Of a DNA stretch of 64,000 nucleotides, positions 25,215 to 34,900 are shown piece by piece. Under the pieces are notes generated by a model, which was not told the origin of the DNA, did no database searches, and saw only the letters and a program-made list of their open reading frames with translations. The translations under genes and the position numbers were made by a program. The stretch comes from a virus, in the IMG/VR virus record IMGVR_UViG_3300020122_000238, positions 1 through 64,000 of that record; one strand, given 5' to 3'. The first letter of the stretch is position 1, and every line of letters starts with the position of its first letter.

Positions 25215-26255
25215 ATGGTGGCGTACAAGAAGACGTTGGCGGCTCTCGCAAAGAACGAGCGTATGAGGCTCGCAGCGGGTCCTGTATTGCCTCCTGACCC
25301 CTCTGGGGCACCTGGCGGGGCACCTCCTGGCGGGATGGCTCCTTCTCCTTTCGCGGACAATGCGAAGCGGACCATCCCGGCGAACTTCAAGTTCGACCCC
25401 CATTCGCTCAAGCCTCTTGCGCAGACCCTCTGGGCCTTGTCGATCTCCCTTGGCCACACACTGACGGCACACCGTCAGTTCGCCCGGGTGAAGTCTGCGA
25501 CGGTATCTCCGGATGGGATGCTGGGTGGACGTGGGTACGTCATGGGGGTCAAGGACATTCGGCAGCGTCTCTACGAGGCGTCCGAAGCTCTTTCGGCCAT
25601 CTGCGACACGATTCACGACGAGATCAACGCGCCCCATTGGAAGCCCCGGCTTGCCGAGCTGGAGAAGGATGAGGCGGATGACCTGAAGCGCCTTCTCACC
25701 GACGCCGAAGACAATCTCCAGAATCCTGAAGAGGAAGCTGAAGAGGACATGGAGGCTGTTGAAAACGGTGAGAAGGACAAGGGGCCTGGGGGAGGCAAGG
25801 ACGTCTCTTGGAAGCCTGGAGGGGATGAGCGTTTCGACAAGCAGGAACCTGCCTCTTCGGTCCCTTCGGGAGGCGACCAGGAGACTCTGCATCGAGGCGG
25901 GCCCAAGCCTCCGAGCAAGAAGCAGGCGTCTTCACGCTACTCCTACGACTACACAGGCGGTCCTGTGGCGGAGTCGGGTCTCCCGAACGATGGCGAAGAC
26001 GCTGTTGATCGGGCCGATTACTACCGGGGGCCGAAGGGCAACGGAGTCGCAATGGGGCCCGTGTCTGAGTCCGAGCTTCCTTCGGCGGATGGTGGTCCGC
26101 CGAAGGAGGACATCGACCTCCCCAATACCAGCCTTCGTGGGAAAGACCCCAGCAACCAACGTCCGAACTGGGATTCTCCGGTACACGAAACGTACATTCG
26201 CGACCCTTATCAGAGGCTCGACGATGCGATGATGAGGAGGGTTCCCCGTGGGTGA
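25215..26255 (+). CDS. Hypothetical virion-module protein, acidic and disordered C-terminus
   Basis: Residues 1-60 hold a Gly/Pro-rich linker (PSGAPGGAPPGGMAPSP). Residues 60-175 are helical, and the rest is highly charged and low in hydrophobics. ATG 25215 lies in GGATCCATGG; GTG 25203 in the same frame overlaps the previous stop and is the alternative. No family recognised. Confidence 0.65.
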   Translation: MVAYKKTLAALAKNERMRLAAGPVLPPDPSGAPGGAPPGGMAPSPFADNAKRTIPANFKFDPHSLKPLAQTLWALSISLGHTLTAHRQFARVKSATVSPDGMLGGRGYVMGVKDIRQRLYEASEALSAICDTIHDEINAPHWKPRLAELEKDEADDLKRLLTDAEDNLQNPEEEAEEDMEAVENGEKDKGPGGGKDVSWKPGGDERFDKQEPASSVPSGGDQETLHRGGPKPPSKKQASSRYSYDYTGGPVAESGLPNDGEDAVDRADYYRGPKGNGVAMGPVSESELPSADGGPPKEDIDLPNTSLRGKDPSNQRPNWDSPVHETYIRDPYQRLDDAMMRRVPRG

Positions 26256-28503
26256 TCTTGGCGATCTCGGTTCGTTCCTGAAGGATGGTTCTCTCGCAAA
26301 TCTCGACTGGCTCAACGTGAATGAGTCGGACTACCGGGATCTCGACAACCTCCCCAAGCAGAACCTCGATGTGTCTCCTGACCTGGAGGCCCTCTGGGGG
26401 CATGACGGGTCGAACCCGACGAGTTTCGTACCCAACCGGGGAGATGCTCCTCGAACGGTGGGTGATCTCAGCGAGCAAGGGAACTTGCGAGCGGGGCCGG
26501 AGGATGTCGTGAAGGTTGCTCGGCTTGCGTTGATGCAGTCGAGCGACACACAGAAATTCCGAGCGGCTCTTGTGGGACGCTTTGACCAGAACACGCTTCG
26601 AGCGAATCGTGCGGTCATTGCTGGAGTTCTCGCCGAACGCGGGCTTCTGGGCAAGCTCTACATCTCTGCCGAGGACTTTCCTGGTTGCCATCGCGGCTCC
26701 AAGAAGCCCATCGAATTCGTCCGCAAATTCGCAGGGGATGCCAGGTTCGTCCTCGCGAAGCCGGCGTGCTCGGGCTGCATTCATTCCCAGAAGAGCCCTG
26801 TGGGATCCACACAGACTTGCTCTGTCTTCCACAAGGAGATCCAGATCGAGGTCCCGTACTCGGATGCTCTCGCGGCGGAAGTCGAGCAGATGCAGCGAGT
26901 AAAGGGGAAGGATATTCAGCACTTGGCCTCCGTCCCTCGGGAACGGGTGCGCCTCGCCATGCTGGCTCCGAACGTTCGTCTCGAAGGCCCGGCACCTCAG
27001 CCGAAGCCTGTAGAGGCAACGGACCGACTTCTTCGTCCGATCGAAGAGACGCCTCAGCTACAGCTCCCGGTGGACCTCACCTACATCCGGGCAACAGCTC
27101 GGGAGACGGCGGCAAAGGCCTTCACCAAGGGCGGGCTCACGGTCGCACAAGCACAGGACACCTTCTTCGCAATTGCTCATTCTCAGGACGAGAGCTTCCT
27201 CCTCAAGATGGCCGAACGCATGGCCGACCTCGCAGATGTCGAGCTGGCTCCTCGTGTCTACCAGGGGATGGGGGAGCAGGCGAAACCTCAGCTCATTGAC
27301 AGGACCGAAGCGGAAGCTCAGCTCATTTCCGTCGCCAACCTCACGAAGAAGAAGGAGGCGGCCACCAAGATGATGCTGTCCGCCGACCGAGCCAGGCCGG
27401 TTGTGGAGCTGCTTCGTCGGGAGATGCTCAAGGGCCGAACTGCTGAAGATGTGGCGAGCATCTTGAAGCAGTCGTTTCAGTCGACGGACCTCCAGGCAAC
27501 CAAGGACCACTGGGCACCCATCTTCCGTGAGGCGGGTGTTTTCGGCGTGCTCTACTCCACACAGGAGAGCTTCGACGATTGCCGGACCGGGCATGACTTC
27601 CTCGCGAAGCACAACCCCGGCATCAAGGTGATGGTCGCCGGCTCCAAGTGTGGCGGGTGCATCTACAACAAGATCGGCCGATGCCTCCTGTACGGGAGGC
27701 CCTTGGTGGCGTCCGCTGAAGCGGTTCTCACCTGGGATACGGCAGAGCGCCAGCTTCAGGAGCACAAGGCATCGGGGCGTATACAGCCCTGGGGTCCCAC
27801 GGCTTCGGAATGGGGTGCTTCTCCTCGGGAGGCTCTCCAGAAGATGCATCGGTCGGCTTCTCTGAAGAGCGGGGCCACCTCGGCACCTACTCGAATGGAG
27901 GTCGTCAAGGCCTACCACAGCAGGTCTCAGGCGGTTCGAACCAGTGCGCTTGTCCGTCGAGACATCGTGAAGGTGGCCTCCCGCTTCATGAATGAGGGGC
28001 TCTACGGCAAGGACCTCCTCATGGCTCTCAAGGGGCGGTTCGACTCGCGGGACTTGGCGGCATCGGCGGAGGACTTGAGGCCGGTCATTGCGGAGCAGGG
28101 TCTCCAGGGGATCTACTTCGTCGATCCGAGCATCTACGACGATTACGGCAAGGGCTGTGAGGAGGCCTCCCGGCTGCATCGGGCTCGCCTGGTCGAGTAC
28201 GTGAAGATCGGCTCACGCTGTGGGTCGTGCGTTCTTCAGACTCGTACGGGCTTCTGCTCGAAGCTCAACAAGCCTCTGGTCAACGAGCCTCCCTACTACG
28301 ACAAGCTTGCCCAGCAACGGGAGATCATGGCTTCGGGAGCGGCTACCGAGATCCCGTTTAGCCAGATCATGAACAACGGTCAGTCGATGATGGTCGAGTA
28401 CGAGATGCAGCACAGCCCGATGGACATCGACCTCAACCCTGTCACGACGGCGGCTGATGTCGATGTCGAGCTGGGGACGGCCAACCAGGGGTTCAGGCTG
28501 TGA
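26248..28503 (+). CDS. Protein with three Cys-cluster repeats
   Basis: 751 residues with the same module three times, at about 90-195, 385-485 and 573-680: a helical part (FRAALVGRFDQNTL; VASILKQSFQSTDL; LLMALKGRFDSRDL), a single Cys (FPGCHRG; FDDCRTG; GKGCEEA), then CSGC, CGGC or CGSC and one further Cys. Four Cys per module suggests three zinc or iron-sulfur sites. Lies upstream of the terminase genes. I know no named family with this pattern. GTG 26248 overlaps the previous stop. Confidence 0.75.
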   Translation: MGDLGDLGSFLKDGSLANLDWLNVNESDYRDLDNLPKQNLDVSPDLEALWGHDGSNPTSFVPNRGDAPRTVGDLSEQGNLRAGPEDVVKVARLALMQSSDTQKFRAALVGRFDQNTLRANRAVIAGVLAERGLLGKLYISAEDFPGCHRGSKKPIEFVRKFAGDARFVLAKPACSGCIHSQKSPVGSTQTCSVFHKEIQIEVPYSDALAAEVEQMQRVKGKDIQHLASVPRERVRLAMLAPNVRLEGPAPQPKPVEATDRLLRPIEETPQLQLPVDLTYIRATARETAAKAFTKGGLTVAQAQDTFFAIAHSQDESFLLKMAERMADLADVELAPRVYQGMGEQAKPQLIDRTEAEAQLISVANLTKKKEAATKMMLSADRARPVVELLRREMLKGRTAEDVASILKQSFQSTDLQATKDHWAPIFREAGVFGVLYSTQESFDDCRTGHDFLAKHNPGIKVMVAGSKCGGCIYNKIGRCLLYGRPLVASAEAVLTWDTAERQLQEHKASGRIQPWGPTASEWGASPREALQKMHRSASLKSGATSAPTRMEVVKAYHSRSQAVRTSALVRRDIVKVASRFMNEGLYGKDLLMALKGRFDSRDLAASAEDLRPVIAEQGLQGIYFVDPSIYDDYGKGCEEASRLHRARLVEYVKIGSRCGSCVLQTRTGFCSKLNKPLVNEPPYYDKLAQQREIMASGAATEIPFSQIMNNGQSMMVEYEMQHSPMDIDLNPVTTAADVDVELGTANQGFRL

Positions 28504-28988
28504 TACACCTTGCTCGTCGTGTCCTATCTCGATATCTGAAGCAGATTCGAGGGACAATGCCTGTTGAGGACTATTACGATGTGGTGCATTCGGAAGATAT
28601 AGGCCAACAGGAAGGTTTCGTATTCCGTTTTCTACTCGCGGATCAACCCGTTGGACAACGGAAGCGAGATCGCGAGCTTGCGACCCCCATCAACCGTACA
28701 CGGGGGATTGACGAGAAAATTCAAAAGGACAACGCGAGGACGGATGATAGCCACGATGATGCTGTGGAGCCGGATCGACGGGACATCTTGCCTTCGGATG
28801 TCTTCTCTCCTTCGCCTCGCAGCATGAGCGTTCGCAACTTCGCCGAGACAGGCGAAGACCAAGACAAGGTGCTTCGTACCCAGGTCCACAAGGACAAGGG
28901 GTGGGACACCGTCAAAAATCTCTCTCAGTACCTCATTCGGACCGAAGGCGGAGGGGACACCCCTCCAGCCGGGAAGAACCTGAAGTAA
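28500..28988 (+). CDS. Hypothetical protein, 162 aa
   Basis: GTG 28500 overlaps the previous stop. Hydrophilic and probably largely disordered, with a short helix at the N-terminus (MIHLARRVLSRYLKQI) and a Gly/Pro-rich end. No motif recognised. Ends one base before the probable small terminase gene. Confidence 0.65.
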   Translation: MIHLARRVLSRYLKQIRGTMPVEDYYDVVHSEDIGQQEGFVFRFLLADQPVGQRKRDRELATPINRTRGIDEKIQKDNARTDDSHDDAVEPDRRDILPSDVFSPSPRSMSVRNFAETGEDQDKVLRTQVHKDKGWDTVKNLSQYLIRTEGGGDTPPAGKNLK

Positions 28989-29679: not shown

Positions 29680-32600
29680 ATGGCATCCCCCAAAACCAAA
29701 GCTGAGAATGCTGGGACGAGCCTTGCAGCGCTCGTTCGAACAGCAGGGCAGCAGGCAAAGACAACGGTTGTTGAGAACCTCGAAAAGGAGGCCCTCTCCC
29801 AAATCGAGGTCGTCGATGGGGACCCCCCGGCTCAAGTACGGCCCGCGACGGCTCGTATTTTCAGCATCCTCGACTACATCGAACAGCCTTGGGGGTTGAA
29901 TCTCACCCTCTATCCTGTCCAGAAATTCATCGTCAAGCTCTACTACCACCTACCGTTGGAAAGCAAGGTCAAGACCATTGAGGTCAAGGACATGTTCAAT
30001 ACGGTTCTGTTGCACCATTTCACCGAAGTGGAGTACCTCAAGTTCTTGTACGAAGATGGCCGTTGCAACATCGGCGTACAGGATCATATACGCCGAGAAC
30101 TCCTACTTTCCATAGGTCGTCGTGGGGGAAAATGTGTTACAGGTGACACATTGGTCCTCACCGACCATGGTATCATTCCTATTGAAGAGCTGGGTACAGC
30201 TTCGAAAGAGGACTTCTCTGAATTGAAAGTTGGTGTTGCTCAGGAAGGATCTACCTTGTCTGAGTCCTCCCACTTCTACAATGGTGGGGTGAAGCCGACA
30301 TACCGTCTTCGTACGAAGGCTGGGTATTCGATCTGCGGTACGGGAAATCACCGCGTTCGAGTCATGACTTCCTCAGGCAAAGTCGACTGGCGGTATCTCG
30401 ATGAGCTACGTCAAGGAGACTTCGTCGCGATCCATCGTGGGACGGACTTGTGGGCTTCCGAGAATCTCGACCTTGAGCCTTTCCACAACGGAGATGGTCA
30501 CAAGGATGTCAAGCTTCCTGGTGTTCTGGATGAGAAGCTTGGAAACCTGCTCGGGTATCTAGTCGGGGATGGTACTTGGGGGGACGGGCACGCTATCTCT
30601 CTCACGGTCGAGCACCACGAGACGTGGCGTCATCTTCGATCTCTCATTTCAGAAGTGTTCGGGGCTCCCCGCGTCCAGATGGACAAGCGGACGAAGAATA
30701 CAGGGCGGATCGAGTTCTGTAGCGTCCGAGCCCGAAGGTTCCTTGACGCATTGGGGTGGTCTCTCGATTGTACCCGAGACACCAAGATGATCCCTTGGGC
30801 CATCCTACGGTCTCCCAAGACGGTCGTCTGTGCCTTCCTCAGGGGTCTTTTTGAGACGGACGGCTGCGCTGAGTCTGGTGGGAGGAAGGTTACTTTCTCC
30901 ACCGCCAGCTTCCAGTTGGCTCATGAGGTTCAGGTAGTTCTCTTGAACCTTGGGATTGTGTCTAGTGTTCACCGTAAATGGAACACCAAGACTGAGCGTT
31001 ATTACGCTTATCTGAATTTGCTTGGGGTTCGATCTCGACGTCGGTTCGCAGAACTCGTCGGATTTGATTCGCTTAAAAAGCAACGCCCCCTGCTTGCATC
31101 TCTTCTCGTTGCTGAGGAAGGGAAGTCGGATACAGAGAGCATTCCTCATCAGTACCGAAGGGTGCGAGATCTTCTTGAGTCTATTCCCAAGCGGAACCCG
31201 AGTCGTGGCGAGATGGGCTGGGGTCGATCGAAGCTCCGCCAGGCTATTGGTAATACCTGCAAGCCTGGTTCTGGGGAAGACTTGACGTATCATCGTCTAG
31301 CCAAAGCAATCAAAATCGCAGATGAGCTGGCGGCGAGGCATACCGAGATTGCTCATTTCGAAGAGCTTCTTCGTCTCGATTACTTTTACGATCCAGTGAC
31401 TTCTGTGGAAGAAGGGGAGGATCAGGTCTACGATCTCTCTGTCCCTGTGGGTACATCCTTTGTTGCCAACGGGATGACGAACCACAACACAACATTATCG
31501 GGAATTTTCGCGAGCTATGAGGTCTACCGACTTCTGAATTTGGGGAACCCCCAAGGATACTACGGTCTTCCGAACGGTAACCGTATTCAGATCGTCAGCA
31601 TCGCGACGGACAAGGATCAGGCAGGTCTTCTCTTCAACGAGGTGACCTCACACTTGAGTCGTTGCGAGTACTTCAAGCCCTACATCGCCAACAACACCCT
31701 GAGCCACATTCAGTTCAGGACCCCCCACGACATCGAGAAGTACGGGGCGACAAGCCGGCACGAGAACGGCAAGTTCACCTCGTTCAACGGCAAGGCGACC
31801 ATGAGGGTCACCTTCAAGTCCTGTATCGCGAAGGGGCTTCGTGGCGCGGGTAATGCTGTCGTCATCATGGACGAGATGGCCCACTTCAAGGACACGGGGC
31901 AGTCGAGTGCGAAGGACATCTACGACGCCGTCACTCCTTCTACCGCCGCTTTCTCCCCGAAGGACCCCAACGACACGACGAAGCCAATTGGTGACGTCGA
32001 GGCTCGGGTTATCGCTATTTCGTCGCCTCTCAACAAGCAGGGGAAGTTCTACGAGCTGTATCACCAAGCAATGAGCGGAGGTGAGCCGGCCAAGAATATG
32101 ATCGCGATTCAAGCTCCGACATGGGAAATCAATCCCACGGTTCCTGCCGACTACTACCGGCAGAAGTACCACGCCGATCCTCTGGTCTTCATGACCGAGC
32201 ACGGGGCGCAATTCTCTGATCGTGTCCGTGGTTGGATCGAACGAGAGGTGGATCTCCTGGACTGCATTGATGCAAACCTACGTCCCAAGGAGGCGGGGCG
32301 TCCTCGTGAACCACACCAGATGGGGATCGACATCGGGCTCATGGGGGACGGGACGTCGATTTTCATCACTCATGTCGAGAACAACGAGATCGTTCTGGAC
32401 TACCATGAGTCGTGGTATGCTGGTGTGGACTGGCGTGAGACGAATTCCCATCTTGGGGGTTCCCCCTCGATGGCCTATGCCCGCGGCCTGAAGGACGTCG
32501 AGCGCCTGGACTTCGAGGAGATCGGGAACTGGATCGAGAACCTGACCAAGAGGTTCTTCATCACCGCCGGGATCTTCGACCGTTGGAACGGTATCCCGCT

Positions 32601-33072
32601 GGAGCAGGCTCTCAACAAGAAGGGGCTCAAGCAGTTCAAGTCGGAACACTTCAAGCGCGACTTGTCGAGCCAGATATACCAGAACACGAAGCTCATGATG
32701 TTCGACCGGAAGCTCCGTCTCTATGACTGGCCCAAGGCCACGGTCGGGAACCGGCACTCTCCTTTCATTCAGGAGTTGCTGGGCCTTCAGGCTGAACAGG
32801 TCTCTCGGAACTTGGTCATCGTCTCGGCTTCTGAGACGGTTGGCCAGCATGACGACATGGCTGACGCCTTCGTTCGAGCCGTGTGGCTGTCTGCTCAGCG
32901 CATGACGAATACCCGGCTCGCTCTTGGTCCTTCGGACAGTCGCGGTCAGACGGGGATGGGCATGTCGCTCGCTCGCTACCAGATGGCTCGAGCCCGCAAC
33001 CACGGTGGGTTCTCACAGCGGGTCGTGCCGAGGGGCAGCGGCATGGGGCTTCGGTCGCGAGGAGGCCGGTAG
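29680..33072 (+). CDS. terL: Large terminase subunit precursor containing an intein
   Basis: DNA-packaging motor: ATPase plus nuclease. After removal of the intein (residues 152-603) the mature protein would have 678 residues. The Walker A GRRGGK-TT is formed only by splicing; Walker B is VVIMDEMAHF (Asp731/Glu732 of the precursor). The RNase H-like nuclease domain has GIDIGLMGDG (Asp884), GIFDRWNG and HDDMADAF (Asp1058-1059). The C-terminal 60 residues are Arg/Gly rich. Starts at an ATG within GATCCATGG three bases after the previous gene. Confidence 0.95.
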   Translation: MASPKTKAENAGTSLAALVRTAGQQAKTTVVENLEKEALSQIEVVDGDPPAQVRPATARIFSILDYIEQPWGLNLTLYPVQKFIVKLYYHLPLESKVKTIEVKDMFNTVLLHHFTEVEYLKFLYEDGRCNIGVQDHIRRELLLSIGRRGGKCVTGDTLVLTDHGIIPIEELGTASKEDFSELKVGVAQEGSTLSESSHFYNGGVKPTYRLRTKAGYSICGTGNHRVRVMTSSGKVDWRYLDELRQGDFVAIHRGTDLWASENLDLEPFHNGDGHKDVKLPGVLDEKLGNLLGYLVGDGTWGDGHAISLTVEHHETWRHLRSLISEVFGAPRVQMDKRTKNTGRIEFCSVRARRFLDALGWSLDCTRDTKMIPWAILRSPKTVVCAFLRGLFETDGCAESGGRKVTFSTASFQLAHEVQVVLLNLGIVSSVHRKWNTKTERYYAYLNLLGVRSRRRFAELVGFDSLKKQRPLLASLLVAEEGKSDTESIPHQYRRVRDLLESIPKRNPSRGEMGWGRSKLRQAIGNTCKPGSGEDLTYHRLAKAIKIADELAARHTEIAHFEELLRLDYFYDPVTSVEEGEDQVYDLSVPVGTSFVANGMTNHNTTLSGIFASYEVYRLLNLGNPQGYYGLPNGNRIQIVSIATDKDQAGLLFNEVTSHLSRCEYFKPYIANNTLSHIQFRTPHDIEKYGATSRHENGKFTSFNGKATMRVTFKSCIAKGLRGAGNAVVIMDEMAHFKDTGQSSAKDIYDAVTPSTAAFSPKDPNDTTKPIGDVEARVIAISSPLNKQGKFYELYHQAMSGGEPAKNMIAIQAPTWEINPTVPADYYRQKYHADPLVFMTEHGAQFSDRVRGWIEREVDLLDCIDANLRPKEAGRPREPHQMGIDIGLMGDGTSIFITHVENNEIVLDYHESWYAGVDWRETNSHLGGSPSMAYARGLKDVERLDFEEIGNWIENLTKRFFITAGIFDRWNGIPLEQALNKKGLKQFKSEHFKRDLSSQIYQNTKLMMFDRKLRLYDWPKATVGNRHSPFIQELLGLQAEQVSRNLVIVSASETVGQHDDMADAFVRAVWLSAQRMTNTRLALGPSDSRGQTGMGMSLARYQMARARNHGGFSQRVVPRGSGMGLRSRGGR
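30133..31488 (+). mobile_element. Intein with LAGLIDADG homing endonuclease, in the terL P-loop
   Basis: 452-residue in-frame insertion beginning Cys (CVTGDTLVLT, splicing block A) and ending VPVGTSFVANGMTNHN, followed by Thr as the +1 residue. Block B is represented by GTGNHRVRV. Two dodecapeptide motifs, LLGYLVGDG (about 292) and LRGLFETDG (about 387), show an apparently intact DOD-type endonuclease. It splits the Walker A sequence between Lys and Thr, a highly conserved site typical of intein homing. Base composition is somewhat more AT-rich than the flanking terminase. Confidence 0.95.
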
Positions 33073-33327
33073 GTGAACGATCGGCCCGACCCTCCTCGTG
33101 TCTTTGCGAATCGTGTCATCAGGCAGATGATTGATCACATGCTGGCGGAGGACATGATCGCAGAGCCCAAGGACTATCTCACCATGCGGACGGCCTTCCG
33201 AGCCAAAGGAGGGTCGTGGAGTGCGATTGGTGAAGGGTCGACGAAGGACCTGGAAACCCTCAAGGACATCGTCATTGAATGGGGGCAGATGCCCGACCGT
33301 GAGAAGGAATCGGACAGGGAAATCTGA
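33073..33327 (+). CDS. Hypothetical protein, 84 aa
   Basis: GTG start directly after the terminase stop. Helical, charged, no cysteine pattern. Its stop overlaps the ATG of the first of three paralogous genes. Function unknown. Confidence 0.65.
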   Translation: MNDRPDPPRVFANRVIRQMIDHMLAEDMIAEPKDYLTMRTAFRAKGGSWSAIGEGSTKDLETLKDIVIEWGQMPDREKESDREI

Positions 33328-33848
33328 TGCCTGAGCTACCTCGTACCAGGGACTCCTATACCCTCTCGAAGGGGGATACATTCACCGTCACGATCACGGA
33401 CCGTATGGCTGTGGGTGGCTGGAAGGGTGGGCAGGGGGTTCAGTACACCTCCTCGGCCAAGGATGAGGTGACGGTCGATTACTCGGATGGGCTCTACGCG
33501 GGGTTCATGCTTTGGGGGTCCGACGAATCTTCGGACAAATTTACGGCGATGACGCAGAATCAGCCTGCGTACAAGTTCGTCGTTGTCGGGGCTGGGGGCT
33601 GGGTCATCATGACGACAACCTACGAGAAGTACACATACGCTTCTCGCATGGCAGGTCCTCCGTACGTGCCCATCGAATACCACGCCAGCGACCGGATGGT
33701 GTTCTCGCTTCGGGGGTACTGGACGAACGAGGATGAGTGGACTCTCTCGGGGGACCCGCGGGGAGCCAACAACTACTACATCGGCTTCCTGATCCAACGC
33801 CCTACTCCAGCTCGAAACGAGTATATGACACTCCAGGTCAGCATTTAG
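33327..33848 (+). CDS. Tandem paralogue 1 of 3, virion-module protein
   Basis: 173-residue beta-rich protein. It shares with the next two genes the order WKGGQGVQ, FMLWGSDESSDKFTAMT, TYEKYTYASRMAGP and FSLRGYWTNEDEWTLSGDP. Located between terminase and portal genes. No enzymatic motif; a capsid decoration, host-recognition or adaptor role is possible but not shown. Confidence 0.75.
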   Translation: MPELPRTRDSYTLSKGDTFTVTITDRMAVGGWKGGQGVQYTSSAKDEVTVDYSDGLYAGFMLWGSDESSDKFTAMTQNQPAYKFVVVGAGGWVIMTTTYEKYTYASRMAGPPYVPIEYHASDRMVFSLRGYWTNEDEWTLSGDPRGANNYYIGFLIQRPTPARNEYMTLQVSI

Positions 33849-34364
33849 ATGGAAATCGAACGAACCCGTGACGTCATCGTACTCGTTTCAGGCACGGCCA
33901 ATCCCGTTGTCGTTGATGCCCTGATGGCCTCTCAAGGCTGGCCTGGGGGGCAAGCCGTAACGTGGAAAGACAGCCCTGACGACACCTTCATGGTCACGTT
34001 TTCGGACGGGACCTACGGGGGCTTCTTGCTGTGGGGGTCGAACGAGGCGGCCGACCAGCTCACGGCGATGACGGGGCAACAGTCGATCTACAGATACGCG
34101 ACCCTGTGCTCGGGGACCTGGATCATCTCGACTTCGACCTTCGAGAAGTACACATACACGAGTCGAATGGCTGGCCCTCTTGTCGAGAACCTGTACGTTG
34201 AAGGGGGGCGGTTGACCTTCTCGCTTCGAGGGTACTGGACTGTTGAGGATGAATGGACGCTTTCGGGGGACCCTCGCGCTCCCAACGACTACTTCATCGG
34301 GTATGTTGCTCAGGCTCCGAGCCTAATCACCAAAAACTACTTGACGGTTCAAACCTCGATCTGA
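33849..34364 (+). CDS. Tandem paralogue 2 of 3, virion-module protein
   Basis: 171 residues with the conserved segments GWPGGQAVTW, FLLWGSNEAADQLTAMT, TFEKYTYTSRMAGP and FSLRGYWTVEDEWTLSGDP. Starts at the base after the paralogue 1 stop. Divergence is greatest at the N-terminus, which suggests different partners for a common fold. Confidence 0.75.
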   Translation: MEIERTRDVIVLVSGTANPVVVDALMASQGWPGGQAVTWKDSPDDTFMVTFSDGTYGGFLLWGSNEAADQLTAMTGQQSIYRYATLCSGTWIISTSTFEKYTYTSRMAGPLVENLYVEGGRLTFSLRGYWTVEDEWTLSGDPRAPNDYFIGYVAQAPSLITKNYLTVQTSI

Positions 34365-34366
34365 CC

Positions 34367-34900
34367 ATGGACATCAACTTCCGAGGGATCGATATCATCC
34401 GGGGTCGTGACTGCACGATCTTCATCAAGGGGGATACCTACGCTGTGACTGTGGACTCTGCCCTGCTCGCGAATGGGTGGGTTGGGGGTCAAGGTGTGCA
34501 GTGGGTGGACTCGGATACGGATGAGCGAGTCGTTACGTATTCCAAGGGGTTGTACGGAGGGATTCTCATTTGGGGGTCCGACGAGCAGGGGGATCGCTAC
34601 ACAGCAATGACCCAACAACAGCTCGTCTACTCGACGGCTGTGATGATGGTGGGCCGGGGGCTCATCTCGACTCTTGCTTATGAGAAGTACACGTATGCAA
34701 GTCGACTGATGGGGCCTCTCGTCCCCATCGTCTACATGCCGCACGACATCTTGTACTTGTCCCTCCGAGGGTACTGGACGAACGAGGATGAGCTGACGCT
34801 GTCTTCCGATCCTCTGGCCCCCTGCTTCTTCACGGGATTCGTGGCTCAAGTTCCGAAGGTCAACAACCAATTCCAGCTCGGCATTCAGACTTCGATGTGA
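34367..34900 (+). CDS. Tandem paralogue 3 of 3, virion-module protein
   Basis: 177 residues with GWVGGQGVQWV, ILIWGSDEQGDRYTAMT, AYEKYTYASRLMGP and LSLRGYWTNEDELTLSSDP. ATG 34367 follows the previous stop by two bases. All three copies have intact frames, so they appear to be kept by selection. Confidence 0.75.
   Translation: MDINFRGIDIIRGRDCTIFIKGDTYAVTVDSALLANGWVGGQGVQWVDSDTDERVVTYSKGLYGGILIWGSDEQGDRYTAMTQQQLVYSTAVMMVGRGLISTLAYEKYTYASRLMGPLVPIVYMPHDILYLSLRGYWTNEDELTLSSDPLAPCFFTGFVAQVPKVNNQFQLGIQTSM

Follow-up and report, generated by a model that had tools for sequence, protein, structure and literature searches.

The large terminase subunit (TerL) gene carried on the 64,000-nucleotide stretch of viral DNA analyzed here, called the window and belonging to a virus record of 275,300 bases, is interrupted within its Walker A motif by a 452-aa insertion. 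We hold with high confidence that this is a class 1-type intein bearing a homing endonuclease (HEN), one that would splice out of the precursor, cut intein-less terL genes and spread. The insertion itself is real and no chance resemblance, since dozens of related phage contigs use the identical codon boundary. The host belongs to a huge-phage lineage that is largely uncharacterised.

Insertion site and host gene

The features of the precursor and the evidence for each are as follows.

29680..33072, plus strand: TerL precursor, 1130 aa (ORF; PHROG terminase large subunit matches; alignment to intein-free TerLs)
29680..30132, plus strand: N-extein, with Walker A GRRGGK as its C-terminal end (junction translation)
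30058..30132, plus strand: upstream core of the putative co-converted flank, 79-80% identity to the empty allele (alignment; regional median 93%)
30115..30132, plus strand: Walker A residues GRRGGK, the next Thr lying beyond the intein at 31489-31491 (junction translation)
30133..31488, plus strand: intein with LAGLIDADG homing endonuclease, 452 aa (junctions, Pfam, residue conservation, predicted fold)
30133..30447, plus strand: N-terminal splicing (Hint) part, residues 1-105, including Cys1 (alignment, structural matches)
30340-30351, plus strand: block B TGNH (TxxH), residues 70-73 (alignment)
30517..31122, plus strand: LAGLIDADG homing endonuclease domain, residues 129-330 (LAGLIDADG_3; I-DmoI and I-Tsp061I structural matches)
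30547..30573, plus strand: first LAGLIDADG motif LLGYLVGDG, residues 139-147, acidic D146 (alignment)
30838..30864, plus strand: second LAGLIDADG motif LRGLFETDG, residues 236-244, acidic D243 (alignment)
31363..31488, plus strand: C-terminal splicing part, residues 411-452, ending in NHN (His451-Asn452) (Pfam, alignment)
31489..33069, plus strand: C-extein, first residue Thr+1 (TTLSGIF) (junction translation)
31489..31563, plus strand: downstream core of the putative co-converted flank, 77% identity to the empty allele (alignment)
31858-31875, plus strand: Walker B VVIMDE within the C-extein, which also holds the nuclease part (motifs named by inspection)

The TerL ORF is interrupted in frame, the 452 intein codons containing no stop and being read continuously with the remainder of the gene. 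The N-terminal junction reads ...LLLSIGRRGGK/CVTGD... and the C-terminal junction ...FVANGMTNHN/TTLSGIF..., which places the insertion between Lys151 and Thr152 of Walker A (GRRGGK/TT). The coordinates given for the intein in the initial annotation match these junctions exactly, and the translation bears out its statement that the Walker A Lys and Thr are split. Five Walker A residues (G146, R147, R148, G150 and K151) are invariant across intein-free TerLs. The extein sequence matches terminase large subunits in PHROGs; Pfam leaves the terminase of the intein-bearing precursor below its cut-off, a pitfall of which annotators of such precursors should beware. Profile searches of the whole 275,300-base record recovered the two halves of the window intein with PF14890 and its endonuclease with PF14528, and no other match with either profile.

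Among the neighbouring genes, three consecutive ORFs directly 3' of TerL (33327-33848, 33849-34364 and 34253-34900) resemble tandem paralogues of one ~170-aa protein; the first of them, the sole one queried, had no PHROG match. A 751-aa ORF at 26248-28503 contains three similar Cys-rich segments (CSGCIHSQKSPVGSTQTC, CGGCIYNKIGRCLLY and CGSCVLQTRTGFC) and also had no PHROG match.

Empty alleles, distribution and divergence at the junction

Comparison with intein-free alleles, which the initial annotation had proposed, was possible with two contigs, L005 and L006, which are identical to each other over the 9.6 kb compared. Their terL corresponds to that of the window, with 95.3% protein identity in the exteins, and is empty at exactly the K/T position. 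The terminase outside the intein looks intact, as the joined exteins align to this empty allele with zero gaps (679 codons in each including the stop, or 678 residues). At the DNA level, the window and L005/L006 share ~90-94% identity over most of 6-54 kb (roughly 40 kb), with a median of 93%. A relative of the intein was sought across the L005 and L006 records, in a search that had no positive control inside those records, and none was found. Two local departures from this background were noted away from the insertion. Upstream of terL, positions 28500-28640 have very low identity to L005 in a region otherwise at ~93%, possibly a small indel or replacement, and a second, weaker dip (0.79-0.88) with many amino acid changes lies inside the C-extein at 31956-32156.

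Identity between the window and L005 falls well below its level elsewhere in the 25 codons before (79%) and after (77%) the insertion, and the differences there are mostly synonymous. Plain identity in 75-nt windows was not decisive, with ~10 regional windows as low or lower (several of them without a coding check), and a synonymous-only scan was therefore adopted, using sliding windows of 31 fourfold sites across 26 putative genes. Among its 4,379 sliding windows, fourfold-site divergence reached its maximum (17/31) at 30061-31603, spanning the junction, against regional means of 0.10-0.27; permutation of the scan within terL gave p 0.009. Within terL, fourfold differences number 15/30 near the junction and 65/285 far from it (Fisher p 0.003), but the near region was picked after the dip had been seen, so that the stronger evidence comes from the regional scan.

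The divergence peak fits co-conversion of the flanks during homing from a diverged donor, a signal that comes from one informative filled/empty pair, the window and L005. L003 and L004 were tried as flank donors and rejected; their match to the window tract is no better than that of L005, and the donor would thus be an unsampled one. Profiles of six further filled/empty pairs were mostly uninformative owing to synonymous saturation; in the pair L069/L078 a dip was seen on the downstream side only. A near-identical phage without the intein, together with what looks like a scar left by foreign DNA on both sides of the insertion, indicates that the intein arrived recently in the window phage. Outgroups side with L005 by 27 to 14 in the tract, but by 68 to 42 in the remaining gene; since the rest of terL leans to L005 as well, outgroup polarity alone gives no direction.

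On a wider scale, a search with the C-extein only found the intein in 15 of 80 TerL loci, every one at the same K/T position. The intein is scattered over a tree of 86 distinct TerLs (32 filled and 54 empty, a set enriched in inteins since intein searches fed it), which requires 19 intein state changes, at least 15 of them forced by starred branches. The intein and extein trees disagree, and L112 is plainly discordant. Between L112 and the window, the inteins share 59% identity and group together (98, starred), whereas the exteins share 37% and that of L112 falls with the distant terminases L127/L128/L131 (100, starred).

We also weighed vertical inheritance followed by loss, in which the ancestral TerL was filled and the L005 lineage was emptied by recombination, the divergent flanks then belonging to L005. 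Precise recombinational loss also leaves a local tract, and the tree counts state changes, not their direction. Distances of inteins and exteins do show a weak correlation (Mantel r 0.24, p 0.009), as such inheritance would have it, but inteins are closer than exteins in all listed pairs with the window. Moreover, the other close TerLs (L027, L026, L050 and L010) are likewise empty, and the GC3 of the window flanks (0.39-0.56) is near that of the intein itself and lower than in the L005 flanks (0.70-0.80). On this evidence, we judge ancestral presence with loss in L005 to be unlikely, and prefer gain by homing in the window phage.

Splicing and endonuclease parts

Pfam recognizes both parts of the intein, Intein_splicing at 54.1 bits (cut-off 35.8) and LAGLIDADG_3 at 70 bits (cut-off 22.5). 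The class 1 residue set is complete (Cys1, T70-G-N-H73, H451-N452 and Thr+1), and includes the terminal Cys, HN and +1 Thr that had been read from the sequence at the outset. In an alignment of 30 related inteins, C1, H73, H451 and N452 never vary, while conservation of T70 and N450 reaches 90% or more. The two LAGLIDADG motifs are present as first described, and neither catalytic Asp is replaced; in the same alignment all sequences share D243, and at least 90% share D146.

An AlphaFold2 model built from this alignment (pLDDT 91.5, pTM 0.92) was compared with known structures by Foldseek and VIA-align. The top-ranked matches are full-length HEN-bearing inteins, with TliVMA as the best (Z 32-33), followed by PI-PkoII (30.6), PhoVMA (29.3) and PI-PfuI (27.6). 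The Hint fold is present (Mxe GyrA intein, Z 21.7-22.1, rmsd 1.9-2.0 A), and residues 129-330 of the model match I-DmoI and I-Tsp061I. Judged by the model, the splicing part and the two-motif endonuclease both look complete. TliVMA, the Thermococcus litoralis V-ATPase A subunit intein (PDB 7qss/7qsu), shares the combination of Hint and LAGLIDADG with the window intein, although the two are ~21-24% identical and the TliVMA host gene encodes an archaeal V-ATPase. The same two-motif architecture is found in PI-PfuI (1dq3) and PI-PkoII (2cw7), which reside in archaeal host proteins and have ~20% identity to the window intein.

Inteins usually pass through a stage of HEN decay in their life cycle, and a splicing-competent intein whose endonuclease has decayed to inactivity, retained solely as its loss must be precise, would fit that pattern. 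For the window intein, this is improbable: the HEN domain is whole, retains its two acidic residues and has a high-confidence predicted fold, the peak in divergence at the junction hints at mobility in the recent past, and identity to relatives is only slightly lower in the HEN (64-68%) than in the N-terminal splicing part (70-75%). A codon model aimed at selection on the endonuclease gave IQ-TREE branch lengths of ~6-10 substitutions per codon site, so that synonymous sites are saturated among the known inteins of the group. A non-splicing insertion, with TerL dead or split and packaging left to another terminase, is scarcely credible given that all splice residues are conserved, the extein is gapless against the empty allele, and the Walker B and nuclease motifs are kept.

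Both splicing and cleavage by the window intein are activities that we infer from its sequence, conserved residues being no proof of rapid splicing or of an active nuclease. By established intein chemistry, the 1130-aa precursor would excise the 452-aa intein and ligate Lys151 to Thr152, which would restore GRRGGKT and the packaging ATPase. Because Walker A cannot form with 452 residues interposed, TerL activity is expected after splicing only; unspliced TerL would be inactive and packaging would depend on splicing. During co-infection, the freed intein would then target terL alleles that lack it and cleave them at the conserved DNA of the P-loop; repair of the break would spread the intein with short flanks carried along.

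Related inteins and the place of the window intein

The Lys/Thr site of the TerL P-loop was described in 2016 as TerL1-a, a 'classic' P-loop insertion (Kelley et al., PMC5050341). Like the window intein, TerL1-a of mycobacteriophages is inserted between the invariant Lys and Thr; the likeness is one of insertion site, the lineages being mycobacteriophages in one case and huge phages in the other. The same study demonstrated splicing for five TerL inteins and cleavage for two, with experimental sites b, c, e, f and g and site a outside this set; the BAKA b and Bethlehem c inteins were shown to splice and to cut intein-less partners (PMC5050341). Cleavage there extended to a pair, BAKA-Courthouse, with 75% identity in the 20 nt to either side of the site (PMC5050341); the corresponding figure for the window and L005 is ~76% in 21 nt to either side. 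The annotated terminase of Psychrobacillus phage Perkons (MT325768) also has an intein at the P-loop K/T (RGFGK^C...N^T), but intein identity to the window is ~27-30%, with no detectable TerL extein match. HEN-bearing homologues covering the full query occur in phages of Staphylococcus, Enterococcus, Listeria and Bacillus (Twort, EFP01 and others), where the host gene is a DNA helicase and identity to the window intein is 20-27%. Inteins are known in jumbo and huge phages, and the host genes named in the portions of these accounts concerned with them are others than TerL (PMC7824862, PMC6892783, PMC12363816).

Relatives of the K/T type were also found outside TerL, at the GK/T of a DnaX-like protein (L142/L143) and of an SNF2-like helicase (L149). 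The contigs L104/L143 and L105/L142 carry a TerL K/T intein and, ~12 kb apart, a second intein at GHGQGK/TT of the DnaX-like clamp loader that is 36% identical to that of the window. In L137, L145, L146 and L147, related inteins (34-36% identity) occupy a second site of TerL-like proteins, which lies before SSA[DE]x[IV]YRA and maps just past Walker B. The intein of L022, considered as a TerL intein, was rejected as it sits in a gene unrelated to TerL. A much bolder reading, which we regard as very improbable, is that conditional splicing at K/T (late in infection, or according to ATP or DNA state) could act as a packaging timing switch, and that the wider family moves, within the same phages, among P-loop ATPases unrelated to one another (TerL, the DnaX-like clamp loader and the SNF2-like helicase).

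The kind of element and its insertion hot spot are already known, and the window intein is a further member. The additions are a huge-phage TerL lineage, a mosaic of filled and empty alleles, and a single filled/empty pair that bears a scar at the junction. Together, the window phage and its empty sister form a natural pair suited to direct tests of homing and flank conversion. The overall distribution shows that the element, which breaks up the catalytic loop of an essential packaging motor, has been gained and lost repeatedly.
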